DNA from: an uncultured Lachnospira sp.
GTDB lineage: Bacteria > Bacillota > Clostridia > Lachnospirales > Lachnospiraceae
Length of the DNA stretch: 32,434 bases
Direction: 5' to 3'
NCBI GenBank assembly: GCA_947628875.1
Contig: CANRBP010000005.1
Location: 1-32,434, forward strand
Of this stretch, positions 1-17,022 are shown in pieces. The translations under genes and the position numbers were made by a program. The notes under the pieces are model-generated. The model worked only from the letters and a program-made list of their open reading frames with translations. It had not been told where the DNA came from and did not search any database. Position 1 is the first letter of the stretch. Each line of letters starts with the position of its first letter.

Positions 1-779
1 CACTGGTCAAACGGCGCGTTTAGCGGCGTTGTGCAGTCATCGACACCAGTCATATACTTTATCTTTGTCGGCACGCTGTTGGCTTGCATGCGCTCATCTG
101 TAGGGTCAACCCTTGTGCCGTCAGCCAGTGTTTCAAGCTCTTCGAGTGCAATGGCAGGCGTTTCAGATGCATCTTCATAAATTATTACTTCCGTATCAAG
201 TGCGCAGTTTTCATAAATCCATTTGGCATCTGATGCTGCCATATATATGGAGCCGATATCGGCAGGACTTCCCAGGCGGTTGTATGCCGCAGTTATAAGC
301 CATGATGTATCCTGCGCCTGATAAGGCACGGAATGAAGATATGCCCCATTTCCAAGCCTGGACGCGTAATGGCCGTATACAGACTGTTCCAGGCGCCGCC
401 AGATATACTTTTCTGATACTGACGTTGTTCCTGTCTGCACATCTTTATGCACAGAACAACGGAATACTTTATATGCCTCAGTAAATTCCATATTCTGGCC
501 AAGCTTATAAACAGTCAGGAAATTCTGGCTTTTATTTACCTTAATCTGGTACTGGTGATTTTCTTCTACATAATTTGAACTGGATTCCGGTTCAGTATTC
601 GCGGCAGGTTCCGAGGAAGGCATCTGCCCCTCCTTTAGCGATTCCGTCCGCATGCTTGCAAACACAAAAATAACGGCTGCCAGGAATACAACCAAAATGA
701 TTGCATAAATTGTTGCATTGCCTCCCAGCAGCCACTTTTTAATGTCCACTTTTTTGATTTTCTGATATTTAAAATCCAT
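1..779 (-). CDS. Membrane-anchored L,D-transpeptidase (YkuD)-like protein, C-terminus truncated by window edge
   Basis: Not in the ORF track because it has no stop inside the window. Reverse-complement translation from ATG at 777-779 is open to position 1: MDFKYQKIKKVDIKKWLLGGNATIYAIILVVFLAAVIFVFASMRTES... (one TM segment), then YkuD-like ...NFLTVYKLGQNMEFTEAYKVFRCSV...YLHSVPYQ...YNRLGSPADIGSIYMAASDAKWIYENCALDTEVIIYED. Confidence 0.8.
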   Translation of the reverse strand, partial: MDFKYQKIKKVDIKKWLLGGNATIYAIILVVFLAAVIFVFASMRTESLKEGQMPSSEPAANTEPESSSNYVEENHQYQIKVNKSQNFLTVYKLGQNMEFTEAYKVFRCSVHKDVQTGTTSVSEKYIWRRLEQSVYGHYASRLGNGAYLHSVPYQAQDTSWLITAAYNRLGSPADIGSIYMAASDAKWIYENCALDTEVIIYEDASETPAIALEELETLADGTRVDPTDERMQANSVPTKIKYMTGVDDCTTPLNAPFDQ

Positions 780-797
780 AAAATCAATAATATCCTA

Positions 798-1433
798 TCA
801 TTTATTATTAAAATGTTTTTCCTTTAGTTCAATATATTTCAAAATCAATTCAATAGAACCATCAATTCCAAGTTCTCCGCTGTCCAGACAAAGATCATAG
901 CTCTTGGCTTCGCCCCACTTCTTGCTCGAATAATAGTTGTAATAACTTGCTCTGCGCTTATCAGTTTTCTGGATCAGATCAGCCGCCTTGGAATCGCTTA
1001 ATTCATAGAGGCGTTTAATTCTTTCGATCCTGTTTTCCATGCTGGCCTTTATCCATACGCTGATCGCAAACGGGTTATCCTCAAGCGCATAATCGGCACA
1101 TCTGCCTACTATAATGCATGATTCGCGCTCAGCCAGCTTTTTAATCGTATCAAACTGTGCAAGAAATACCTTGTGGTTAATAGGCATATCTACGTAAGAG
1201 CTTGTGTATCCAAGCGAATAAGTATCCATTACAAGCGAATATAAAAAGCTGTTTGTAGGTTTTTCATCTTGTGAGGCAAATAAATCTTCACAAAGGCCGC
1301 TTTGCTTTGCAGCCAGTTCCAGAAGTTCCTTGTCATAACATTTAATACCAAGACGCTCTGCAAGCTTGCTGCCAATCTCATGTCCCCCGCTTCCGAATTC
1401 CCTGCCGATAGTGATAACTGTCTTGTCGTCCAT
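798..1433 (-). CDS. Cytidylate kinase-like family protein
   Basis: N-terminus MDDKTVITIGREFGSGGHEIGSKLAERLG is a typical P-loop of the cytidylate-kinase-like family. Start taken at internal Met (track ORF extends to 1445). Confidence 0.85.
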   Translation of the reverse strand: MDDKTVITIGREFGSGGHEIGSKLAERLGIKCYDKELLELAAKQSGLCEDLFASQDEKPTNSFLYSLVMDTYSLGYTSSYVDMPINHKVFLAQFDTIKKLAERESCIIVGRCADYALEDNPFAISVWIKASMENRIERIKRLYELSDSKAADLIQKTDKRRASYYNYYSSKKWGEAKSYDLCLDSGELGIDGSIELILKYIELKEKHFNNK

Positions 1434-1600
1434 AATACTCCTCATTTCTGCGCTGCTTATTGCTCATTATTGTAAATTTGTGCCAAGAAGCGCTAAAATT
1501 AACCTTTGGTTTTTATATTATAAATATTATAAAACAAAACCGGATAAAAATCCATTAAATTTTATTTTTAAGTTAATTTAATGCATTATGACGTAAACAT

Positions 1601-2171: not shown

Positions 2172-3104
2172 TCACCTGGAGTGCAGGATGCCTAAAATCT
2201 TTTCAAAATAATCCGGCAGCGGCGCTTCAAACTCCATATATTCCCCGGTTCTGGGATGAACAAATCCCAGAATTCTTGCATGCAGCGTCTGTCCGCAAAG
2301 CTTCCAGGGAGACTTTGTCTGGCTGTATACGCTGTCGCCAAGCAGCGGATGCCCGACAGATGCCATATGTACGCGGATCTGGTGCGTCCGTCCTGTTTCC
2401 AGGCTGCATTCCGCATATGCCATATCCCTGAAATTTTCCAGTACATGATAATGTGTTACTGCCTTTCTTCCGTTTCTGTAATTTACAGCCATCTTTTTCC
2501 TGTCCGCCGGATGCCTGCCTATTGGAGCGTCAATAGTACCCTCATTCTGGCTGAAACGGTTGTGGCAGATGCATTGGTATTTTCTTGTAATTGAGTGGAC
2601 GGCTAACTGGCTGGCGACAGCCTGATGCGCAAAATCATTTTTGCAGGCAACCAGTACCCCGGTTGTATCCTTGTCTATCCTATGGACTATGCCGGGCCGC
2701 AAAACGCCATTGATTCCAGAAAGTTTTCCGTTGCAGTGGTACATCAGTGCATTTACAAGCGTGTGGCTGTAATGCCCCGCAGCAGGATGCACGACCATAT
2801 CCTTCGGCTTGTTTATCACGATAATATCATCGTCCTCATACAGAATATCAAGCGGTATATTTTCAGGGACAATTTCCGTCTTTTCCGGTGCCGGTACAAC
2901 CACCTTCAGCTTATCATCATGCGATACCCTGTAGCTGCTTTTTACAGGTTCGTTGTTTACCAGCACACAAGAATCCTTTATCAGTTTTTGCAGAAATGAT
3001 CGCGAATAATTATCAAATTCCTCTGACAGGTATTTGTCTATCCTCTCCCCGTCCTCATTGGCGTCCACAAAAAGATAAAAACACTCCTGCTGGCCGTCCG
3101 TCAT
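2172..3104 (-). CDS. RluA/RluD-family 23S rRNA pseudouridine synthase
   Basis: S4-like N-terminus (ERIDKYLSEEFDNYSRSFLQKLIKDSCVLVNN) and catalytic motif GIVHRIDKDTTGVLVACKND; GRTHQIRVHMASVGHPLLGD. Start placed at MTDGQQE. Confidence 0.93.
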   Translation of the reverse strand: MTDGQQECFYLFVDANEDGERIDKYLSEEFDNYSRSFLQKLIKDSCVLVNNEPVKSSYRVSHDDKLKVVVPAPEKTEIVPENIPLDILYEDDDIIVINKPKDMVVHPAAGHYSHTLVNALMYHCNGKLSGINGVLRPGIVHRIDKDTTGVLVACKNDFAHQAVASQLAVHSITRKYQCICHNRFSQNEGTIDAPIGRHPADRKKMAVNYRNGRKAVTHYHVLENFRDMAYAECSLETGRTHQIRVHMASVGHPLLGDSVYSQTKSPWKLCGQTLHARILGFVHPRTGEYMEFEAPLPDYFEKILGILHSR

Positions 3105-3156
3105 TTTTCCTCCATTCCCGGGCCTGAAATACAAATCACTTTATTCATATTTCGGC

Positions 3157-3678
3157 CTAGAGCTTCATAAAATCATAATCATCTTCACTGTACACAAACA
3201 GCATCAAAAACCCAAGCATTATAAAACCGACTGTAATGTAGGCATCTGCAATATTAAATACAGGGAAATTTATCAGCTTAAAATAAATAAAATCACGCAC
3301 ATAACCCAGTGCAATGCGGTCTATAAAATTTCCAACCGCCCCTGCCCCAAGAAATGTGACCGCAGCCAGCAGCCATGCATACTTTCTGTTAAACGGCATC
3401 CTCGCCGCTGCCCAAAACAGAGCCGCAATAACAGCAGCCGAAACCAGCATAAAAAATATGCGTGATCCCGGAAACATGCCAAATGCAATACCTGTGTTTT
3501 CCAGGTATTCCAGCTGCAAAACATTTTTAATCAAAATAAAAGGCATCTTGCCTTTCAGTGCGCCGGCAGCCGCCTGCTTCGTCAGCAGGTCAAAAGCTGT
3601 CAGCATGGATAAGCATGCCAGAAAGACAAGCAGTGAGCGGAAACGTATAAACAAATCTTTACAAACATTTTTAAACAT
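3157..3678 (-). CDS. lspA: Signal peptidase II (lipoprotein signal peptidase)
   Basis: FDLLTKQAA, ENTGIAFGMF, GAVGNFIDRIALGYVRDFIYF...FNIADAYITVG with both catalytic Asp. Start MFKNV at 3676-3678, one nt after the aroB stop (3680-3682). Confidence 0.93.
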   Translation of the reverse strand: MFKNVCKDLFIRFRSLLVFLACLSMLTAFDLLTKQAAAGALKGKMPFILIKNVLQLEYLENTGIAFGMFPGSRIFFMLVSAAVIAALFWAAARMPFNRKYAWLLAAVTFLGAGAVGNFIDRIALGYVRDFIYFKLINFPVFNIADAYITVGFIMLGFLMLFVYSEDDYDFMKL

Positions 3679-3679
3679 A

Positions 3680-4777
3680 TTACAGAGGCTCCTGTATGAC
3701 CGCCGATAACGCGCGCCGCATTGTGCCATCGTCCACGGTCATGTCTATATATGCATTGCCGATGCCGTCAAGCAGGATAAACTTGACTTTTCCGGCATCC
3801 ATTTTCTTATCGTTCTTGGATACTGCAATTACTTCGTCCGCGTCCAGTCCTGATACCGTCAGCGGGAAGCCGTAAGCACTGAACATATCCATCGCATCAC
3901 TGAAATCTTCCTGCGTAACCAATCCGCGTTCACGGCAGACTGCAAGAGCTGCGACCATGCCAAGCACAACACATTCTCCATGATATAGCGAAAAACCGGT
4001 CAGCTTTTCAATCGAATGACCAAGCGTATGGCCAAAATTCAGAAGCGCACGATCACCCTTCTCTGTCGGATCAAATTCTACAACCTTCCGCTTTATATCG
4101 CAGCTGGCTGCAATCATCTCTTCAAGAACCTTAGGGTCATGCATTCGTATGCCTTCCGTATTCTCTGAAAGCCAGCTGTAATAATTCCTGTCCTTTATCA
4201 AGCCATGTTTAATTATCTCACCAAATCCGGAATTAAACAGCCTTGGACTCAGCGTGCTCAGCGTGGAAATATTCATATAAACAAGCTTAGGCTGGTGGAA
4301 CGCGCCGACCATATTTTTATACGCCCTGAAATCAACTCCCGTTTTGCCGCCTATGCTGGAATCAACCTGAGCCAGAAGTGATGTTGGCACTTGAATAAAC
4401 TGGATTCCGCGCAGGTAGCTGGCCGCCGTAAAGCCTACAAGATCGCCGACAACGCCGCCGCCGAGAGCAACCAGCATGTCCTTGCGGTCAAACCTGTTTT
4501 GAATTAAAAATTCATATACATCTTGGACTATATCAAGGTTTTTGTTAGCCTCGCCAGCCTGGAAAGTATATACATGCACGGCGTTGCCTGTTTTTTCAAG
4601 CTCATTTTTGACATCTTGCGCATAAAGCGGGCCGACATTACTGTCTGACACTACTGCCAGCTTACGGCCTGTGATGCCGAGAGACTTAACGCATTCTGCA
4701 AGCCGCGAAAAATCATGCTCAATCTCAATGTTATAAATAGGTATATCATGGTCATGTACAGTAATCGTTTTTGACAT
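3680..4777 (-). CDS. aroB: 3-dehydroquinate synthase
   Basis: GGGVVGDLVGFTAASYLRGI, GGKTGVDFRAYKNMVGAFHQP, FGEIIKHGLI, NFGHTLGHSIE, HGECVVLGM. Start set at MSKTITVHD; the track ORF extension crosses the upstream repeats. Confidence 0.95.
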   Translation of the reverse strand: MSKTITVHDHDIPIYNIEIEHDFSRLAECVKSLGITGRKLAVVSDSNVGPLYAQDVKNELEKTGNAVHVYTFQAGEANKNLDIVQDVYEFLIQNRFDRKDMLVALGGGVVGDLVGFTAASYLRGIQFIQVPTSLLAQVDSSIGGKTGVDFRAYKNMVGAFHQPKLVYMNISTLSTLSPRLFNSGFGEIIKHGLIKDRNYYSWLSENTEGIRMHDPKVLEEMIAASCDIKRKVVEFDPTEKGDRALLNFGHTLGHSIEKLTGFSLYHGECVVLGMVAALAVCRERGLVTQEDFSDAMDMFSAYGFPLTVSGLDADEVIAVSKNDKKMDAGKVKFILLDGIGNAYIDMTVDDGTMRRALSAVIQEPL

Positions 4778-4792
4778 TTTTGCCTCAATTCT

Positions 4793-4839
4793 GTGCTTAT
4801 GGCACATATGTGCTTTAGGCACGTTTGTGCTTTTGGCAC
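4793..4839. repeat. Three 13-bp palindromic units GTGC-N5-GCAC at exact 17-bp period, directly upstream of aroB
   Basis: gtgcttatggcac (4793-4805), gtgctttaggcac (4810-4822), gtgcttttggcac (4827-4839). Confidence 0.9.
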
Positions 4840-4854
4840 GTTTTTCTAAAAGGA

Positions 4855-4899
4855 GGCTGCCGCATTAAGATACATAAGATGTTATTTAATGCAGCAGCC
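4855..4899 (-). terminator. Hairpin between sepF and aroB (terminator or attenuator)
   Basis: Arms ggctgccgcattaa (4855-4868) and ttaatgcagcagcc (4886-4899). The single mismatch becomes a G-U wobble in the minus-strand transcript, giving a 14-bp stem; followed by CCUUUU. Confidence 0.6.
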
Positions 4900-4912
4900 C
4901 CGCCATTATCGG

Positions 4913-5464
4913 TTAGAATTTAGGTTCATTCTTATTGAAGGTAGACAGGTCAATGCCGCCTGCAACCAGTTCCGGTATATCGCCTGAAATATCTACATTC
5001 GGCGGCGTAACGAGGAATATGAAATTGGTGATCCTTTGCAGATTTCCGCGCATCGCGTAACATGAACCTGCTGAATAATCGACTATGCGCTGAGCAGTTT
5101 CAACATGGATACCCTCAAGGTTCAAAATTACAGCCTTGCCGCTCAAAAGCGTATCGGTGATCTCACTGGCATCTTCCATAGTCTCAGGACGGATAACAAC
5201 TACCTCTAACCCTCTTGTTCCTCCTGCCTTGATTGGAACGACTTTGCGTCCGGCTGCCTTAGGTTTGTCCGCCGGACGGCTGTCAAGATCATCTTCCTCA
5301 TCATCTTTGTACTTCCTGCTTCCGAAAAACAGATTTTTCCGCGCAGAGCCTTTTTCCTCATCATTCAAGCTGTAGTCTTCATCTTCGTAATCATCATCAT
5401 AGTCGTCATCATAATCATCATGCTGAAGCCGGAAAACATTAATCACACTATCAAAAATACCCAT
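4913..5464 (-). CDS. sepF: Cell division protein SepF
   Basis: Acidic linker then VVVIRPETMEDASEITDTLLSGKAVILNLEGIHVETAQRIVDYSAGSCYAMRGNLQRITNFIFLVTPPNVDI, classical SepF/YlmF core. Confidence 0.95.
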   Translation of the reverse strand: MGIFDSVINVFRLQHDDYDDDYDDDYEDEDYSLNDEEKGSARKNLFFGSRKYKDDEEDDLDSRPADKPKAAGRKVVPIKAGGTRGLEVVVIRPETMEDASEITDTLLSGKAVILNLEGIHVETAQRIVDYSAGSCYAMRGNLQRITNFIFLVTPPNVDISGDIPELVAGGIDLSTFNKNEPKF

Positions 5465-5484
5465 ATCATAACACTCCTAATCTA

Positions 5485-6174
5485 TTAATTATAGCTGCGC
5501 GCACCAAAAATTGCAGTTCCTACACGCACCAGTGTCGCACCCTCCTCGACAGCGATCGCATAATCATTTGTCATACCCATAGACAGGGCATCCATAAAGA
5601 CATTATCAATGTTTTTTTCATTGATGTCAACAGATAATTGCCTTAATTGGCGAAAATATTTTCTGTTTTCCTCCGCATTTTCCACATAAGGAGCGCTTGT
5701 CATAAGTCCTTTTATGCAGATATTCGGAAATGCAGCAATTTCACGGACTGCCTGTTCGACCTCCTGAAGCGCAAATCCAAATTTGCTCTCCTCCATTGCG
5801 GCATTGACCTCAAGCAGGATATTGGCTGTAATGCATTGCTTAACCGCTTCCTTGCTTATTTCGGCGGCAAGCCTTACAGAATCCACAGAATGGATAAGCT
5901 CCGCCCTGCCAACGACATATTTTACCTTGTTGCGCTGCAGATGTCCTATCATATGCCAGTGTATGTCATCTGGCAGCCGGCTGGTTTTGTCCACCAGTTC
6001 CTGCACGTAATTTTCGCCAAATTCACGCATTCCGGCCGCATAGGCCTCCTCGATCATGCCGACAGGTTTAGTTTTGCTGACGGCAACCAGCGTGACGCCT
6101 GACGGGTCGCGCCCGGCACGTTTGCAGGCGGCGGCAATCTCCTCCTGCACTTTTTGTATCTGTTCTGCCAACAT
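5485..6174 (-). CDS. YggS-family PLP-binding protein
   Basis: VTLVAVSKTKPVGMIEEAYAAGMREFGENYVQEL...WHMIGHLQRNKVKYV...LSMGMTNDYAIAVEEGATLVRVGTAIFG. Confidence 0.95.
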   Translation of the reverse strand: MLAEQIQKVQEEIAAACKRAGRDPSGVTLVAVSKTKPVGMIEEAYAAGMREFGENYVQELVDKTSRLPDDIHWHMIGHLQRNKVKYVVGRAELIHSVDSVRLAAEISKEAVKQCITANILLEVNAAMEESKFGFALQEVEQAVREIAAFPNICIKGLMTSAPYVENAEENRKYFRQLRQLSVDINEKNIDNVFMDALSMGMTNDYAIAVEEGATLVRVGTAIFGARSYN

Positions 6175-6189
6175 ATTGCATGCACCTCG

Positions 6190-7680
6190 CTAATAAATCA
6201 TTTTATTTGCCGTGTACTTTTCCGCATCCAGTACGATCCGGTCATAAATGGAAATGCCATGAGACACTCCTTTTCGGGAAATACAGTATTCATTGTTCTG
6301 ATCAATTATGTCAACAAGCTTAAATACAGTATATCCGGTATTTATGCAGTAAACGCCTTTCAGATTCTCTGTAGCGCCAATAATAAAACGGTCTGACGAA
6401 TCAGGCTTGATAATATTTGTGCCTGCGGTAAAACCTTCCTGGCTGACATACAGCATTGTATCCGTAGCCTTGTAAATGTCAGCCTCAACAAAGACAGCCT
6501 GAACCTCACCGTCCGCATACTGTTCGCAGATAAAACCGTAGGCGTTGCTGTTGCCGCCCTTAGTAATATACTCCGCCGGTATCGTATAAAACGGCATCTG
6601 CGTAATGGCAGAAAGAGGTATTTTCAATCCTGTCCTGCTGGCAGTAATAATCTCAACGTCCAGAAAACGCTCCTGTGCATAGCGTACCATATATTTGTCC
6701 AAACTGAGCCTGCCATAATAATAATCATCTTTATGGATAACCGAAAACGCAGCTGTTGTCGTCAGATTATCTTTTTTTATCCTGATGGTCAGAGATGTCC
6801 TGTTGGTAAGGTCATAAGCATCAATATCTTCCTGAGTCAGCGGGATAATGATATCCCAGTTTTCGCTTTCTATCATTTTGTATGCCGGATTGCCGGTAAC
6901 GACCAGGTCATTTGATTTTAATGTCTGCTTGCTGTAGCCTGAACTGTCAAAATCATCATGCGTTATCGTATCAGCCGTCTTGTCCTCATAGCCGTCAAGG
7001 TAGTACATTACAATGCCGGCTCCTTCTGTCTTGACTGTCTGGAACAGCGCTTCGCTTCCAGTGCTGGCGACAATAGATTCAATATTATCCATGATGCTCT
7101 CATTCATTGCCTCAAGGACGGCCGTATTGATATCAGCCTTTAAATCATAAATTTTTGAAAAATTATTTCCGTCATAGCCTGTTCTGAAATTGTTCAGCAG
7201 CGACTTTATTGATGACAGCCTCTGCGGCGAAAGCGAATTTTCACCGGACTGCGTATACTGGGAAAGTATTTCAGACACGCGGCCTGATTCATCAACCGTG
7301 TAGATCGTGTCCCCTTTTTTCACGCGCCCGCTCTCGCGCTGGTAATAATTGATATTTCCGGAATAATCGGACGCATATACATGTTCGCTGCGCAGCGCAA
7401 GTCCTGTATATACGGTGTCAGCCGTAAGCGAACCCGTATCTACCTCATATGTCTTTACATCCGCTTTAGTTATATACATTGTTATAAAGCATATTACATA
7501 AAATAAAACAAGCAAAAAAATAAATGCAGCCGCTTTTGGACGTTGCCTGTATTTAACAATTTTTCTGTGATTTTTAGAATAATTGCCTGATTTTTTATGA
7601 ACATTTTCATGACGTCCATGTGCTGCCTGCCGTCCGGCATTGGAGCGTGAGCGCCGCCTGTAATTTGTATTTCCCATCAT
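6190..7680 (-). CDS. HlyD-family-like membrane-fusion/adaptor protein with basic N-terminal cytoplasmic tail
   Basis: Highly basic N-terminus, one TM (AAAFIFLLVLFYVICFITMYI), then a barrel/lipoyl-like region (YTGLALRSEHVYASDYSGNINYYQRESGRVKKGDTIYTVDESG). Located upstream of yggS-sepF. Confidence 0.7.
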   Translation of the reverse strand: MMGNTNYRRRSRSNAGRQAAHGRHENVHKKSGNYSKNHRKIVKYRQRPKAAAFIFLLVLFYVICFITMYITKADVKTYEVDTGSLTADTVYTGLALRSEHVYASDYSGNINYYQRESGRVKKGDTIYTVDESGRVSEILSQYTQSGENSLSPQRLSSIKSLLNNFRTGYDGNNFSKIYDLKADINTAVLEAMNESIMDNIESIVASTGSEALFQTVKTEGAGIVMYYLDGYEDKTADTITHDDFDSSGYSKQTLKSNDLVVTGNPAYKMIESENWDIIIPLTQEDIDAYDLTNRTSLTIRIKKDNLTTTAAFSVIHKDDYYYGRLSLDKYMVRYAQERFLDVEIITASRTGLKIPLSAITQMPFYTIPAEYITKGGNSNAYGFICEQYADGEVQAVFVEADIYKATDTMLYVSQEGFTAGTNIIKPDSSDRFIIGATENLKGVYCINTGYTVFKLVDIIDQNNEYCISRKGVSHGISIYDRIVLDAEKYTANKMIY

Positions 7681-8581: not shown

Positions 8582-9721
8582 TTATCCTCTGAAGTCAGGT
8601 GAAAAAATGTCGTCATCACGCTCAACATTGCGCTGAAGGCTGATATTTAAAACAATGCCCATAGAAATAAAAGTAGATACCAGCGAAGTCAGTCCGTAAC
8701 TGAAAAACGGCAAAGGCAGTCCGGTATTAGGCATCAGCCAGGTCACGACACATATGTTAATAAAACTCTGGAAGGCGATATAGGCCGCAATGCCGCAGCA
8801 AACCAGGCGTCCTGCAAAATCCTTCGCCTTTATGGCAACAATTATACACTCTAACACTATCCATGACAATAGTAGAATTGTACAGCAGCAGCCCACAAAA
8901 CCTAATTCTTCGCCGATTACCGCAAAAATGAAATCCGTGTGCGCCTCTGCAATAAAATTGCCGTTCTTGAGTGAGGAAGGGTCGTCATTGTTCAGGCCTT
9001 TCCCGGACAGCTGGCCGGAACCTACAGCCTGTACGGAATATTCCTGCTGGTACGTGCCATCGCTGTATTTTTCCGGATCAATAAATGACATGATCCGGTC
9101 GCGCTGATATCCTTCAAGAAGCTTCTGATCGGGATTGCTGATATACAGCAGCAATCCTGCACTGATCGGCACCAGGATTAACAGGCTTATGCCGATGATC
9201 CGGTAACTCAATCCCGCGCAGAATATAATAGTCAGCAGTATCGTGATAATAACGATCGTTGTTGACAGGTCAGGCTGCGTAACGATCAGAAACAGCGGAA
9301 CAGCAAGCAGCGCAGCCAGTATCATCAAAAACTGCCAGGTATTCAGGCGGTCTTTGTAGATGGCAATCAGTTTGGCCGTAAACAGTATCAGCAGTATTTT
9401 TGAAAGCTCAGATGGCTGGAACTGGAAACCGTGTATATTTATCCAGCGCTGTGCGCCCTTTGACGATTTTCCTGCAATCGGGACAGCAATCAAAAGCGCG
9501 ATATTTACAAGATAACACAGCCAGTAAAATCTGAGCAGCCAGGTATAATCCACAAAGGAGATCAGCACCATCACTATGGTTGCAAGCACAAGGCCGATTT
9601 CCTGGCGCATGGTATAAGCAGGGTTTGCACTGTTAATTATAACGATGCCAAATACAGCCGTTATGATCAGCAATATGAAAAGCCTGAAATTATAGGAACG
9701 GAGCTGATATTTTTTTAACAT
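8582..9721 (-). CDS. rodA: Rod shape-determining protein RodA (SEDS glycosyltransferase)
   Basis: Multi-TM FtsW/RodA/SpoVE protein: GSGQLSGKGLNN, EAHTDFIFAVIGEELGFVG, MPNTGLPLPFFSYGLTSLVSTFISMGIVLNI. RodA rather than FtsW from mre/min/PBP2 context. Confidence 0.92.
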   Translation of the reverse strand: MLKKYQLRSYNFRLFILLIITAVFGIVIINSANPAYTMRQEIGLVLATIVMVLISFVDYTWLLRFYWLCYLVNIALLIAVPIAGKSSKGAQRWINIHGFQFQPSELSKILLILFTAKLIAIYKDRLNTWQFLMILAALLAVPLFLIVTQPDLSTTIVIITILLTIIFCAGLSYRIIGISLLILVPISAGLLLYISNPDQKLLEGYQRDRIMSFIDPEKYSDGTYQQEYSVQAVGSGQLSGKGLNNDDPSSLKNGNFIAEAHTDFIFAVIGEELGFVGCCCTILLLSWIVLECIIVAIKAKDFAGRLVCCGIAAYIAFQSFINICVVTWLMPNTGLPLPFFSYGLTSLVSTFISMGIVLNISLQRNVERDDDIFSPDFRG

Positions 9722-9770
9722 ACAAACGCCTCTTTCTGAACAATTTTAATTTATAGTCATTTGGAAGGCT

Positions 9771-10046
9771 TTACCGGTCGCTGCCGCGCATATCCTTAAT
9801 CGGTATATTGGCAAAAAGCGCCGGAACTGAACCGTTGTTATTGTCAGATTCCGTAGAAGTAATCTGAATATCAAGGCCTTCCGCATCTATAACCATATAT
9901 TTTGATATTACTTTTATAATATCATTCTTAATCATTTCCATGACTTCCGGGGAACAGTTTGCCCGGTCGGAAACCAGTAAAAGCTTAAGCCTGTCTTTTG
10001 CAACATCACTAGAGCCTTTTTTCTTAAATAAATCCATTAAGCTCAT
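9771..10046 (-). CDS. minE: Cell division topological specificity factor MinE
   Basis: MSLMDLFKKKGSSDVAKDRLKLLLVSDRANCSPEVMEMIKNDIIKVISKYMVID; immediately downstream of minD. Confidence 0.93.
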   Translation of the reverse strand: MSLMDLFKKKGSSDVAKDRLKLLLVSDRANCSPEVMEMIKNDIIKVISKYMVIDAEGLDIQITSTESDNNNGSVPALFANIPIKDMRGSDR

Positions 10047-10139
10047 CTTATTCTCCCATCTTAACTTAACCTGCGGATCCGCGCAGCGGCAAGATCCGTG
10101 CGTGAAAATGTTTTTCACACGTTCCTCCATGGCACATAA

Positions 10140-10949
10140 TTATTTTTTATCATTCTTAAACCAAGATGAAAACTTTTTAAAGAAGCCGCCCTTCCCGTTC
10201 AGATCAAGGAATGGCACTTCCTCGCCGATGATGCGCCTGCATATGTTCATAAATGCCCGTCCTGCAAGGCTGTCATCACCCACCAGCGGCTGCCCCTTGT
10301 TAGTGGCAACTACAATGTTCTCATCGTCCGGAACAGCACCGATCACGTTGAGCTGCAGTATATCGTTTACATCTTCAATTGACATCATTTCGCCGCGGTT
10401 TACCATATCCATGCGGATCCTGTTTACGATAAGATCCTCATGGTCTTTGAGGCCGTGCGCGTCCAGAAGCCCCACAATCCTGTCTGCATCCCTGATAGCG
10501 GAAACTTCCGGCGTTGTAACAACCAATGCCCTGTCGGCGCCTGCTATGGCATTTTGGAACCCCTGCTCTATTCCTGCCGGGCAATCCAGGATTATGTAAT
10601 CAAATCCTTCCGGATCCGCTTTAAGCTCGTCAAGCACTTTTATCATCTGCTCCGGCGTAATAGCAGACTTGTCCCTTGTCTGAGCAGTCGGCAGAAGATA
10701 CAGTTTTGGGCAGCGCTTGTCCGTGATCATAGCCTGCTTAATCCTGCAATTGCCTTCAACGACATCTACCAGGTTATAAACGATACGGTTTTCCAGGCCA
10801 AGCACGACATCAAGGTTGCGAAGTCCCGTATCTGTATCTACCATTACGACTTTTTTCCCCAGTTTTGCAAGCCCGGTACCTATGTTAGCTGTTGTAGTAG
10901 TTTTGCCAACGCCGCCTTTACCTGATGTTACAACTATTATCTCACTCAT
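10140..10949 (-). CDS. minD: Septum site-determining ATPase MinD
   Basis: VVTSGKGGVGKTTTTANIGTGLAKLGKKVVMVDTDTGLRNLDVVLGLENRIVYNLVDVVEG; amphipathic C-terminal helix FFKKFSSWFKNDKK. Confidence 0.96.
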   Translation of the reverse strand: MSEIIVVTSGKGGVGKTTTTANIGTGLAKLGKKVVMVDTDTGLRNLDVVLGLENRIVYNLVDVVEGNCRIKQAMITDKRCPKLYLLPTAQTRDKSAITPEQMIKVLDELKADPEGFDYIILDCPAGIEQGFQNAIAGADRALVVTTPEVSAIRDADRIVGLLDAHGLKDHEDLIVNRIRMDMVNRGEMMSIEDVNDILQLNVIGAVPDDENIVVATNKGQPLVGDDSLAGRAFMNICRRIIGEEVPFLDLNGKGGFFKKFSSWFKNDKK

Positions 10950-11088
10950 TTTTACCTCCATTCCTGCGCTTCCTTTTGCGCATAACGGGTTTGTGGCAGA
11001 AGCTGTAATGCATATGCACAAATCACGTTATTTTCTCCAAATATTTATTAAATTACAATATGCTGCAATTTTTATCAATGGTTTTTTG

Positions 11089-11769
11089 TCAATTTATATG
11101 GATATCTTCCAATACATTCTGATCCAGGTTCTCAATATAAATATTATTGTCCTCCACAAAGGCTATCTTCGGCTGGATTACCTTGTGCTTTCCTTTTTTG
11201 GCTGATACGCTGTCAGAACTCCTTGCGATCACGTCCCCGATTTTTATCTGCATCGGGTTCATTTCAAGTGCGACCACAAAAGCATTCTCATTTCCGTTTG
11301 CCCCGGCCGTGACATTGCCCCGCAGTCCGCCAAGGATAATGACATTGCCCTTCGCTATGACGCGCCCTCCGGGATTTACATCGCCCAGTATTATGATGCT
11401 GCTCTCAGCCTCAAGCACCTGCCCTGAACGAAGTGTTCCTTTGTAAAACTGGCCGGAAGATGCGTTCTCTTCGTTCTGCTTTTTTTCAAGCGCCTGGACA
11501 AAACGGGAATCCATATCCTCATCATTATCAAGGATACATACAATGTTAAGCTCTGTTACATCTGATATGACATTCAGGATTTCACACTGCTCAACCGTTG
11601 ACATTTTCCTGCCCTCAAATGCTACAGCCATGCTGGCGTTGCCAAAGAATTTCGCAGATTGCTGGAACTTTTCCTGAACCTGAGATTTTAATGATTCAAA
11701 ATCTTCCTGGGCATCCAGCACGACAACAATCCCATGTTTATTGCCTTTAATAACAACTGAATTTTTCAC
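11089..11769 (-). CDS. minC: Septum site-determining protein MinC
   Basis: C-terminal beta-helix GTLRSGQVLEAESSIIILGDVNPGGRVIAKGNVIILGGLRGNVTAGANG; adjacent to minD. Confidence 0.93.
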   Translation of the reverse strand: MKNSVVIKGNKHGIVVVLDAQEDFESLKSQVQEKFQQSAKFFGNASMAVAFEGRKMSTVEQCEILNVISDVTELNIVCILDNDEDMDSRFVQALEKKQNEENASSGQFYKGTLRSGQVLEAESSIIILGDVNPGGRVIAKGNVIILGGLRGNVTAGANGNENAFVVALEMNPMQIKIGDVIARSSDSVSAKKGKHKVIQPKIAFVEDNNIYIENLDQNVLEDIHIN

Positions 11770-11802
11770 TTCTGACTCTCCTAACTGTTATTTTGAATAT
11801 TG

Positions 11803-14571
11803 TTATTCTATCCCATAGTATATTTTGTAAACTTCAGCCATCAAATCAATGGAAGTGTTTGAAGTATATCCGTTTGGTATGGATACGGCCATGGCCACCT
11901 CTGGCGCATTGTAAGGCGCATAGCTGATCAGCAGCGAATGGTCAGGCTCTTTTTTGTTCTCCTGCGCCGTTCCGGATTTTGCTGCAATGGACAGGTTCAT
12001 GCGGCTAAGTGAAACATAAGAGCTGCCTGCCATTATCATGCCTGAATGGACTGCGTTCCATGTGCTTGCGGAGAGCTGCATCTGATTGGCAGCCTCCGCC
12101 TGGTTATCACGTACCAGATTGCCATCTGAATCTGTAATTTTGTCAACAAGCGTCAGGTTATAGCAAGTGCCTGAGTTGGCGATCGTTGACACATATCTTG
12201 CCAGATTGAGGCAGCTGTACAGGTGCGAACCCTGTCCGATGGCTGATGTGATTGCATTCGTATTTGACGCCGATGGCGCTTTTTCTGGTATTTCAATGCC
12301 TGAAAGCGTTGCAAGCCCAAGCTGTTCTGCATACTTCTGCAGCAGAGAAGTCCCATATGTGCTGTTGTAACGCCCGTTACTGCTGCATGCAAGCTCATAG
12401 CCTACATTATAGAAATATACATTGCAGGAGTCGCGTATGGCAGTCGGCACTGTCTCGCTGCCATGCCCGTATAACTGCCAGCAGCGTGGGTTCGGCGTGA
12501 CTTTCGTAAAAGCGCCGGAGCAATAATAAGTGCTTCCTGCACTGATAAGCCCGGTATCCATCGCAGTTATTGCTGAACATATCTTAAATGTGGAACCCGG
12601 CGCCGTCTGTGACTGTGTAGCCCAGTTATACAGCGGTGTTGATTTATCGCTGTTGAGCTGCCTGTAATATTCTGCGTCAACAGAGCCGGACAGCCGGTTA
12701 TTATCATAGCTTGGGTATGATACCAGCGCAAGGACATCACCATTGTTAGGATCCACTATCACGCATGAGCCGGAACACGGACGCAGCGCAAGCTGCGCCG
12801 GCGTGATCGTCTTTGTTTCGATTGCTTTTGATATAAAATCATATGCAGACTGACGGCCTGAGACGAGCGACTGGTAGTCATCATCGCTGTCAAGCACGCC
12901 CTGCTCAAACAGCAGCATGCACACCTGCCTTCCTGAAATGCTTCCCGATTCCACAAGATACTTGTACATTTTCTTATGGAAATCAGTGTCAGTTTCAAGT
13001 GCGTTAAAAATATATTCCAGCAGCGCGTCATATGACTCCTGAAGGCTGGTATACTGCTGCGTTGTCAGCGTTGTCATGTCTATCCAGTTTTTTGCAATCG
13101 CATATTTTAACAGTTCCTCAAGGCTTGTGGAATTTCCATCATTCCAGTTGCGGTATACGGAATCGTTCACATCAACATTATCGCTGTTAAAGATATTCTC
13201 CGCCCTCAGCAGATCCTTATAAATATACCATATATATGCCTGATTTTCTTCGCTGAGTTTCCCGTATTCGGTCGGCGAATCAGTCAGCTCCGCGTGAAGC
13301 CAGCTCATCGTAGCGCCTTTTTTCTGCTGGAAGGCAGAATAAATATTCCGCTCGTTCTCATGCTCTCCGGCAGCTATCTTATCAAGCGATACGATATTAT
13401 TGTCGATAAGCGCAAAATAAATTTCCTTGGCAGTGATGTAAATAGCAGATACATCTCCGGAACTGTTATATGTGTATTTGGTGTCGCCGTTTGTCATATT
13501 GTTCCGGATAATGGAAACAAGTTCATTTTCTATTGCTTCATATATAGCCTTCTGCCAGTTGATGTCAATTGTAAGATATACGTCATTTCCGGCCACGGCT
13601 TCTGTTTCATTTAAAACCTCGGTTATGCGCCCAACGGTATCGACATAAACTGTCCTTGAACCTTTTTTCCCGGACAGTTCAAGCTCCATTGACTGCTCAA
13701 TGCCGGTCTTGCCGACAACATCATTTGCCTCATAGGAGTCATTTTTTGCTTTCAGATCTTCCAGCTCAGATGATGATATGGTTCCTGTATAGCCAAGGAT
13801 CTGTGAACAGTAAACGCTGTCCACATATCTGCGTATATACTGCTCCTCCACAGTCACGCCAACAAGCTCTCCTGAATTTTCAAGGATCGCAGCAACCGTC
13901 TCATCAGAAACCTCATTGGCAATCGTAAATGCCATATACCTGTTGTAGGAATTGGCTGACATGCTAAGCCGCAGGCTGATTATTTCAAGCAGATGCTCCG
14001 GCGAACAGCTGTCCCTGTCAATGCCGTAGCGCTCGCATTCAAAATCAACCATCTGATTCGCTGTTGATGCTTTTTCTTCGTCCGTCAGCTCGCCGATTGT
14101 CGCCTTTCCGTAAGAATCCCTCTGGAACCTGAGAAGCGGCATTCCTGAAACAGTGTACTCAAACATGTCCTCTTCGCCATTATTCCCCGCATACTCTATC
14201 TGGAAATTATTGTAATAGCTGTCGCCTTTTGACTCGATTATCTGCAAAGTCTTTTCAATAGCATTGTTGACCGCTGCATTTTTAGTCTCATTATCCTTAT
14301 AAATGCCGCTGTCGCTTATTTTTACGGCGAACGCCAGATCGTTGTAGGCCAGCAGGACGCCGTTGCGGTCAAAAATCCTTCCTCGGGTCGCCGCCACGCT
14401 GGTTGTTTTCTTAATCGAATCTGACAGGTTTGTCATGTATGACTCGCCGTTGATTATCTGCAGAGTAAACAGGCGGTTGACCAGTATGCCGACCATAAGC
14501 GTAAAAACAAGTGCAAGCGGAAGCAGTCTTGATCTTAACAAACTAAGCACATAATCAAATATTTCTCTCAT
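11803..14571 (-). CDS. Penicillin-binding protein 2 (class B PBP) with a large insertion before the transpeptidase domain
   Basis: N-terminal TM; RGRIFDRNGVLLAYND; transpeptidase motifs APGSTFKIC (SxxK), SCNVYF (SxN), AKSGTAQE (KSGT). Start placed at MREIFDYVL. Roughly 245-aa insert encoded by about 12786-13525. Confidence 0.92.
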   Translation of the reverse strand: MREIFDYVLSLLRSRLLPLALVFTLMVGILVNRLFTLQIINGESYMTNLSDSIKKTTSVAATRGRIFDRNGVLLAYNDLAFAVKISDSGIYKDNETKNAAVNNAIEKTLQIIESKGDSYYNNFQIEYAGNNGEEDMFEYTVSGMPLLRFQRDSYGKATIGELTDEEKASTANQMVDFECERYGIDRDSCSPEHLLEIISLRLSMSANSYNRYMAFTIANEVSDETVAAILENSGELVGVTVEEQYIRRYVDSVYCSQILGYTGTISSSELEDLKAKNDSYEANDVVGKTGIEQSMELELSGKKGSRTVYVDTVGRITEVLNETEAVAGNDVYLTIDINWQKAIYEAIENELVSIIRNNMTNGDTKYTYNSSGDVSAIYITAKEIYFALIDNNIVSLDKIAAGEHENERNIYSAFQQKKGATMSWLHAELTDSPTEYGKLSEENQAYIWYIYKDLLRAENIFNSDNVDVNDSVYRNWNDGNSTSLEELLKYAIAKNWIDMTTLTTQQYTSLQESYDALLEYIFNALETDTDFHKKMYKYLVESGSISGRQVCMLLFEQGVLDSDDDYQSLVSGRQSAYDFISKAIETKTITPAQLALRPCSGSCVIVDPNNGDVLALVSYPSYDNNRLSGSVDAEYYRQLNSDKSTPLYNWATQSQTAPGSTFKICSAITAMDTGLISAGSTYYCSGAFTKVTPNPRCWQLYGHGSETVPTAIRDSCNVYFYNVGYELACSSNGRYNSTYGTSLLQKYAEQLGLATLSGIEIPEKAPSASNTNAITSAIGQGSHLYSCLNLARYVSTIANSGTCYNLTLVDKITDSDGNLVRDNQAEAANQMQLSASTWNAVHSGMIMAGSSYVSLSRMNLSIAAKSGTAQENKKEPDHSLLISYAPYNAPEVAMAVSIPNGYTSNTSIDLMAEVYKIYYGIE

Positions 14572-15085
14572 CAAAATTATGCATCCTCCTCTTATCCTTG
14601 CTGTACAGCTTTGTGTTGAGGTAAGCAAGCGGCTTATACAGCGCAACAAATACAATGGTCGTATAGATGACCTCCGGCAGTATGAACCGGGATATAAAAT
14701 ACATGGCGTTCAGCCTGTTGTGCAGCAGGAAGTTGCCGACATAGGACAAAAAACCGAAACTGAAGCTGCCGGCCACAAGCACTGCAAGCGGCACCAGCAT
14801 TTCATTCTGCTCATATTTCTGATAAAAAACGCCGGCAAAATAGCCGATATAGACAAATACCAGCGCGGAGAAGCCAAACAGGCCTGAAAAAAACAGGTCG
14901 TACAGGATTCCTGCAAAAAATCCGGCGAACATTCCCTCATTTTTGCCGTTCAAAAAACCGAATACTACAGGAAGGATTACAAGCAGGTTCGGCATGATGC
15001 CTCCTATGCAAACAGCTCTCCCCATTGACACCTGGAGGACATAAAAAAATAAAACTAAAACCAGTTCTGCAAGCTTTCTTTTCAT
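14555..15085 (-). CDS. mreD: Rod shape-determining protein MreD
   Basis: Multi-TM protein between mreC and PBP2: GIMPNLLVILPVVFGFLNGKNEGMFAGFFAGILYDLFFSGLFGFSALVFVYIGYFAG. Confidence 0.9.
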   Translation of the reverse strand: MKRKLAELVLVLFFYVLQVSMGRAVCIGGIMPNLLVILPVVFGFLNGKNEGMFAGFFAGILYDLFFSGLFGFSALVFVYIGYFAGVFYQKYEQNEMLVPLAVLVAGSFSFGFLSYVGNFLLHNRLNAMYFISRFILPEVIYTTIVFVALYKPLAYLNTKLYSKDKRRMHNFDERNI

Positions 15086-15113
15086 TTTAACAGATTCCTC
15101 CCCGGCTCTTTTT

Positions 15114-15968
15114 TCAGCCTTCCTCCAGCTTTTCTTTCTTCTGTTTGATGATCAGCACTTCCTGGATATGCGCAAAATCGACAGCAGGCAGCAAATAGCC
15201 GGACTGTGTCAGGTTGTTTGGGTCGGTTGCAACGTCCTTGGCATAACCTATCAGGATACCCTGCAGGTACTTGTCGCTGATATTGGAAGTCACAATCTTG
15301 TCTCCGTTGCGTATCTCCAATCCGCTCTTAAAATAACGCAGATGGATAAGTCCTGAATCCATCAGCTCAATGTCGCCCTCCACCGTGCATATATCCCCGG
15401 TGTCAATAAGCATCGCGCTGACATAGCTGTTATCCTCAATAATAGTTTTAACAATGGAGTAATTGAGTCCGACATCTGTTATGATGCCTACGAGCCCTCC
15501 TCCGGCGATCACATTCATATCTTTTTCAATGCCATCGCGGCTGCCCTTGTCTACCGTGAATGTGCTGTACCAGTTTGTTGATGTCGTTCCTATTACCCTT
15601 GCTGCGACCTTCTCATATCCCGGATACTTCTCATCAAGCTCGTAGAGCTGCCTGAGGCGATCCAGCTCATAACTTTCCTGCTTAAGCTGGTTATTTTCCT
15701 CGACAAGGCTGTCTACCTGCCCCTGCAGCTTTTTGTTCTCTTCAAGCACGCTGTTTAATTCCTGCAAGGTGTCATATTTCCCGGCAACCCAGAGCCCGAT
15801 GTAGTTCATTCCCTTCTGCAGCGGCATGACGACTGTTGAAACTGCATCCCTGAGCGGCGCAACCAGCCTGTCAGTAAAAAAGCTGGTGCCTATAAATGCC
15901 GCGCACAGGACTGTCACAGCTATAAGTATATATTTTGAATTCATGAGTGCAGATAATTTATTTTTCAT
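15114..15968 (-). CDS. mreC: Rod shape-determining protein MreC
   Basis: N-terminal TM, coiled coil, then VAARVIGTTSTNWYSTFTVDKGSRDGIEKDMNVIAGGGLVGIITDVGLNYSIVKTIIED. Confidence 0.95.
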   Translation of the reverse strand: MKNKLSALMNSKYILIAVTVLCAAFIGTSFFTDRLVAPLRDAVSTVVMPLQKGMNYIGLWVAGKYDTLQELNSVLEENKKLQGQVDSLVEENNQLKQESYELDRLRQLYELDEKYPGYEKVAARVIGTTSTNWYSTFTVDKGSRDGIEKDMNVIAGGGLVGIITDVGLNYSIVKTIIEDNSYVSAMLIDTGDICTVEGDIELMDSGLIHLRYFKSGLEIRNGDKIVTSNISDKYLQGILIGYAKDVATDPNNLTQSGYLLPAVDFAHIQEVLIIKQKKEKLEEG

Positions 15969-16002
15969 GGATACCGGCCCTTCACTGCTTATTCAAAATT
16001 TT

Positions 16003-17022
16003 TCAGTCATAAGTCTTATCCTGCGGCGTATATGCAATGCCTGCAAAATCAGGATTGCTTACAACGCCCATCAGTCCGCGTACAACGCTCTCAGATGGAT
16101 TTTCAACAATATTGACTGACAGGTTTGTTTCCTGGTTTATAAACTGTTCAAGGTTATTGATATTGGACGTTCCGCCCGACACGTAAATGCCGTTTTTAAT
16201 AATGTCCGCCGCCAGTTCCGGAGGCGTGCGCTCCAGTATCACTTTAATTGAATCCATAATAGAGTGCAGCGGATCAATTATCGCTGAATAAATCACATCT
16301 GACGATATATCAACGCTGACCGGCAGTCCGGAGAGTACGTTGCGTCCGAAACCCGGAGCAAAATGCTCGTCAATCTGGAGCGCGCTTCCCAGATCCTTTT
16401 TCAACCCCTCCGCCGTCTTAGAGCCGATCACAAGATTGTAAACTTTGCGTACATTGCTGATGATATTGTCATCAAGGCGGTTTCCTCCTATCTTGACGGA
16501 CTTGCTGATAACAATGCCGCCGAGAGACAGCACGGAAATCTCAGTAGTCTCCGCGCCGATATTGACGATCATTATGCCGCGTGACTTCGTAACATCAAGG
16601 CCTGCGCCGATGGCGTCAGCAACCGGTTTATCAACAATATAAATATTTTTGGCTTTCACTTTCGAGTCGGCAACCAGTTCATAAAACGCCCTCTTCTCAA
16701 CCTCAGTAACATCAGTCGGCACTGCGATATAAAAGTCTGTATTGCCGGAGAATTTTTTGTCGCCGTTGATCTTGTTAAAAAAGCTGACCAGAAGCGTCTG
16801 CATATGCTCAATATCTGCAATTACGCCAAATTTGACCGGAAAGGAGACAGAAATATTTTCAGGCGCCTTCTCATACATTTCATAAGCTTCATCACCAAAT
16901 GCCAGCAAGTCCTTTTTGTTTGCAATGGCAATAATATTCTTCTCATTTAAAATCTGATCTTTGTCCTTGCAGCACATTTTAAAATTGCTCGTGCCGATAT
17001 CCACGCCGTAAATATTTCCCAT
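16003..17022 (-). CDS. mreB: MreB-family actin homologue (divergent active site)
   Basis: VDIGTSNFKMC, AIGAGLDV, NIGAETTEISVLSLGGIVISKSVKIGGNRLDDNIISNVRKVYNLVIGSKTAEGLKKDLGSA, YVSGGTSNI; directly upstream of mreC. Confidence 0.92.
   Translation of the reverse strand: MGNIYGVDIGTSNFKMCCKDKDQILNEKNIIAIANKKDLLAFGDEAYEMYEKAPENISVSFPVKFGVIADIEHMQTLLVSFFNKINGDKKFSGNTDFYIAVPTDVTEVEKRAFYELVADSKVKAKNIYIVDKPVADAIGAGLDVTKSRGIMIVNIGAETTEISVLSLGGIVISKSVKIGGNRLDDNIISNVRKVYNLVIGSKTAEGLKKDLGSALQIDEHFAPGFGRNVLSGLPVSVDISSDVIYSAIIDPLHSIMDSIKVILERTPPELAADIIKNGIYVSGGTSNINNLEQFINQETNLSVNIVENPSESVVRGLMGVVSNPDFAGIAYTPQDKTYD

Follow-up and report, generated by a model that had tools for sequence, protein, structure and literature searches.

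The motif of L,D-transpeptidases (LDTs) is (S/T)XGC-phi-R, where X stands for any residue (PMC10434034, PMC12729407). Pseudomonas aeruginosa LdtPae1 contains a second YkuD domain (LdtPae11) that lacks the Cys and reads QLGKIR; those who described it proposed that this domain binds peptidoglycan (PMC10434034). Among cell-wall proteins, pseudoenzymes with a regulatory role are known for LytM peptidases, and the degenerate members of that group show that a wall enzyme without activity can serve as a regulator (PMC10336132). In the literature searched, which took in only a minority of subscription papers, LdtPae1 was the only pseudo-, inactive or degenerate YkuD protein found, and no stand-alone, conserved and syntenic family of pseudo-LDTs was found. 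The proteins described here are, judging from their sequences, such a pseudoenzyme family within YkuD.

The window analyzed (32,434 nucleotides, bases 1 to 32434 of its contig) belongs to a draft Lachnospira genome that is 72% complete. The pseudo-LDT gene occupies its first bases on the minus strand (positions 3 to 779), where an open reading frame of 259 codons runs from an ATG at 779 to base 3 and is still open at the contig end, past which lies the 3′ end of the gene; the window edge thus cuts the gene, as an earlier note on this DNA had reported. A scan for a promoter or terminator of its own gave no excess of sites over shuffles. The predicted protein begins with a Lys-rich cytoplasmic tail, followed by a transmembrane helix (residues 22 to 46, positions 642 to 716, minus strand) that is a helix in the AlphaFold2 model, hydrophobic in sequence and kept in orthologues, then by a low-confidence linker and by the YkuD domain (residues 77 to 200, positions 180 to 551, minus strand). 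The resemblance to YkuD that had been proposed was confirmed by Pfam (PF03734, 31.4 bits versus a cutoff of 23.4, E value of 3.3e-7), and the Pfam scan found no VanW domain (PF04294) in this protein. When modeled by AlphaFold2 with 30 relatives, the YkuD domain reached a pLDDT of ~95, and Foldseek matched the model to solved LDTs, the best being 4xxt (E value of 9e-8), with further matches to Ldt2 of M. abscessus, LdtMt2 (including the C354A and C354S mutants) and YkuD of B. subtilis. A search of the PDB with the single sequence found no match, and the profile search alone gave matches. In the complete orthologues L033 and L034, an Ig-like domain (PF16403) is located at residues 240 to 313; it is missing from many orthologues, and its start, truncated at the contig end, could be aligned to positions 3 to 68 (minus strand) of the window, which excludes the intact second YkuD domain farther downstream that had been envisaged. 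The window protein is therefore assigned to the YkuD family by descent and is predicted to be single-pass and membrane-anchored, with its YkuD domain on the extracytoplasmic side.

Pseudo-LDTs share with the YkuD-family LDTs (LdtMt2, Ldtfm and B. subtilis YkuD) the fold, the HS(V)PY and DAKWIYENC landmarks and a membrane anchor of the Gram-positive type, but they are devoid of the nucleophilic Cys and of the motif Arg, and the His is often lost. In the window protein, Ser177 (TCC, positions 249 to 251, minus strand) stands in the Cys column of the alignment and Tyr179 (positions 243 to 245, minus strand) in that of the Arg, both substitutions having been read correctly in the earlier note; among 90 active-type outgroup sequences, the Cys is present in 100% and the Arg in 99%. 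These sequences also have the His of HSVPY in 100% (100% and 98% for the HS pair), and the window protein keeps this equivalent of the catalytic His as His149 (positions 333 to 335, minus strand), next to Ser150. Hence, the description of the protein as lacking both catalytic residues holds for the Cys and fails for the His, which lies upstream. The His of SHGC, which had been treated as diagnostic, has no such value, since X in the motif can be any residue and the active relatives among the Lachnospiraceae have SLGC, SAGC or SMGC, usually with Leu, Ala or Met in its place. Across the orthologues at the conserved locus, the Cys column is filled by Ser, Ala, Gly, Tyr or Glu, none of them has SHGC, and Cys and Arg are both missing in every syntenic copy, many of which are also without the His. 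The upstream His position was readable in 18 other congeneric orthologues, of which 12 have Tyr, Cys or Ser there; in other genera it is Gln. No orthologue has an Arg two residues past the Cys column. Trp127, Tyr138, Tyr153, Trp187 and Asn191 are kept at 96 to 100% in the orthologues, and the YkuD core positions are conserved as strongly as in active enzymes. Cys192, considered as a migrated nucleophile, was discarded, as it is also kept (89%) in the active enzymes. With the Cys and the Arg gone, the window protein is predicted to be catalytically dead as an LDT, even though its His is in place.

The gene follows at 18 bases a Cytidylate_kin2-like kinase gene (positions 798 to 1445, minus strand; PF13189, E value of 8.5e-61), which is its constant neighbor. 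Farther upstream are the conserved cluster rluD-lspA-aroB-sepF-yggS (positions 2172 to 6174, minus strand) and, in the same direction, the elongation and division genes rodA-minE-minD-minC-PBP2-mreD-mreC-mreB (positions 8582 to 17022, minus strand), named from the sequence of their open reading frames. The order yggS-sepF-aroB-lspA-rluD-(hypothetical)-kinase-pseudo-LDT was found in 19 Lachnospira-group genomes, counting that of the window, although fragmentary contigs show only part of it and aroB or the hypothetical gene is missing in some. The block that runs from PBP2 by way of minCDE-rodA to the pseudo-LDT is conserved in L148 and L151. Beyond the Lachnospira group, a Cys-less YkuD gene was found at the same place in eight genera of Lachnospiraceae (G138 and G434, G344, G402, G301, G061 and G384, G105, G256, and G086), nine genera in all, plus a Butyrivibrio metagenome-assembled genome (MAG) (L104). 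Most other genomes of the family that were checked had no YkuD gene at this place, and in G091 (L196) an intact active-type enzyme is located behind a 66% identical kinase gene, outside the rluD cluster. The kinase itself is far more conserved than the pseudo-LDT (78 to 91% identity in the genus, with matches in 180 of 200 family genomes). Two other genes of this region were also recorded. The one between rluD and the kinase gene (positions 1601 to 2149) codes for a protein of 182 residues that matches nothing in Pfam or NCBIfam; many congeners have it, at 49 to 76% identity, and others do not. The second, within the division cluster between yggS and a methylglyoxal-synthase-like gene (positions 6190 to 7680), codes for a HlyD_2-type membrane protein (PF12700) kept in congeners at 52 to 65% identity.

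All 13 congeners that are at least 90% complete have the pseudo-LDT gene. Pairwise dN/dS values of its congeneric orthologues range from 0.06 to 0.21, a measure of the congeners rather than of the window lineage, whose gene is incomplete and whose nearest orthologues are ~50% identical, and the active paralogue of that genus gives values of 0.05 to 0.20. By this comparison, purifying selection acts on the dead protein about as strongly as on the active one. Phylogenetic analysis with the motif columns removed grouped G138 and L040 with the Lachnospira-group orthologues in one clade (99/92), whereas the remaining genera were placed insecurely on long branches. Other clostridial YkuD proteins without the Cys are encoded at unrelated loci (L062, 5887 to 6900; L102, 5731 to 6840; L107, 5734 to 6891; L106, 5548 to 6756), with the motifs VENVWL, QSSISL and NGYVWL; since the tree sets L062, L102/L107 and L106 apart from the window clade, pseudo-LDTs arose several times.

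A location at the contig end of a draft genome that is 72% complete could indicate a sequencing or assembly error or a decaying pseudogene. However, Cys-less open frames are found at the same locus in 30 genomes, with the dN/dS values given above, so that this explanation is scarcely credible for the window gene and is refuted for the family; an error at the motif is excluded by a change common to the orthologues, and the argument of the earlier note that the conserved fold speaks against random decay has stood, as has its membrane-anchored pseudo-transpeptidase, now backed by nine genera, synteny, selection and the predicted fold. A different chemistry, for instance that of a serine acyltransferase or hydrolase using Ser177 and His149, would agree with the Ser in the nucleophile column of most orthologues and with the His-Ser pair that the window protein and its closest relatives keep, and the sequences may indeed be compatible with residual or different chemistry. 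Nevertheless, we regard it as highly improbable: more than half of the orthologues, although subject to the same selection, carry Tyr, Cys, Ser or Gln instead of the His, other genera have Ala, Gly, Tyr or Glu where the Ser would be, and the Arg is lost everywhere. One sequence does count against a dead enzyme: L021 (1 to 700; the same as L038, from Lachnospira sp. RGIG8490), which is probably an orthologue and falls among the pseudoenzymes, reads AGCVSL, with a Cys (TGC) although without the Arg. It is a fragment beginning at a contig end, with its neighborhood out of view, and its Cys could either have been retained or have arisen from a Ser codon, for example TCC. The YkuD domain might also be a mere spacer displaying an Ig-like domain at the surface, as several orthologues have a C-terminal PF16403 domain or a Thr/Ser-rich tail, but this is very unlikely, because 10 of the 18 congeneric orthologues stop at 232 to 242 residues, just past the YkuD domain and without the Ig domain.

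The earlier note had also proposed that the pseudoenzyme could regulate active LDTs; it would then be a regulator or allosteric partner of the enzyme of the same cell. An active paralogue (L112 to L123, HS...SLGCVR) was indeed found in 10 of the 13 congeners that are at least 90% complete, and the degenerate LytM regulators provide a precedent (PMC10336132). This paralogue resembles the pseudo-LDT in subfamily, transmembrane anchor, Ig-like C terminus and the genomes in which it occurs, but its catalytic residues are intact, it is located at another locus rather than adjacent, and it is absent from some congeners. Moreover, in eight genomes at least 95% complete that have the pseudoenzyme (G008, G012, G013, G138, G402, G061, G384 and G086), no other YkuD or VanW protein was detected, and one of them, G384, is closed (a single contig, 100% complete); G256 has only a VanW protein besides the pseudo-LDT. 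Some divergent YkuD proteins go undetected by the Pfam model, which overlooked the pseudo copies of G061, G384, G256 and G086, and an active enzyme that has diverged could likewise be missed, yet the active-type relatives in this family score far above the Pfam cutoff, and the family profile A3 found one copy only in each of G061, G384, G138, G402, G256 and G086. The lack of any other detected YkuD or VanW protein in the eight genomes weakens the regulation of active LDTs as a general role, which we consider unlikely.

Taken as a whole, the data make it probable that a catalytically dead YkuD LDT has been retained as a non-catalytic envelope component, one that probably binds or organizes the wall rather than crosslinking it. 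As far as can be told from sequence, a peptidoglycan-binding or scaffold role fits best, and of the two functions put forward earlier, the binding of stem peptides is a better fit than LDT regulation. What was once the active-site groove would hold a ligand without reacting with it, either stem peptides of peptidoglycan or a protein of the elongation or division machinery, and the bound pseudo-LDT might then tether or position wall synthesis at the membrane, in a manner similar to the degenerate LytM proteins (EnvC, NlpD and DipM). These work in a comparable way, as a dead peptidoglycan-enzyme fold kept for cell-wall control, although their fold is unrelated, their partners are known and it is hydrolases that they regulate. 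The second YkuD domain of LdtPae1 likewise lacks the catalytic Cys, but it retains the Arg and follows an active domain in the same fused protein, whereas the pseudo-LDT stands alone, is anchored by a transmembrane helix and is syntenic across nine genera. We suggest more tentatively, at slightly less than an even chance, that this is a vertically inherited, stand-alone family serving wall synthesis or division in Lachnospiraceae by binding stems or a synthase, without depending on any active LDT. The gene neighborhood is weak evidence of function, being rich in envelope genes yet including aroB, lspA and rluD, which are not wall-synthesis genes. Genomes with the dead copy and no live one detected offer a clean genetic setting for the study of non-crosslinking roles of YkuD proteins. 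Annotation by PF03734 labels such genes as L,D-transpeptidases, and inferences of 3-3 crosslinking or of carbapenem targets drawn from this label in gut commensals would therefore be wrong for the dead copies. A different and intact YkuD gene (SDGCVRL) was found between miaB and mutS in two Lachnospiraceae MAGs (L058, 4948 to 6492; L111, 4927 to 6492), and both flanking genes are also present in the window.
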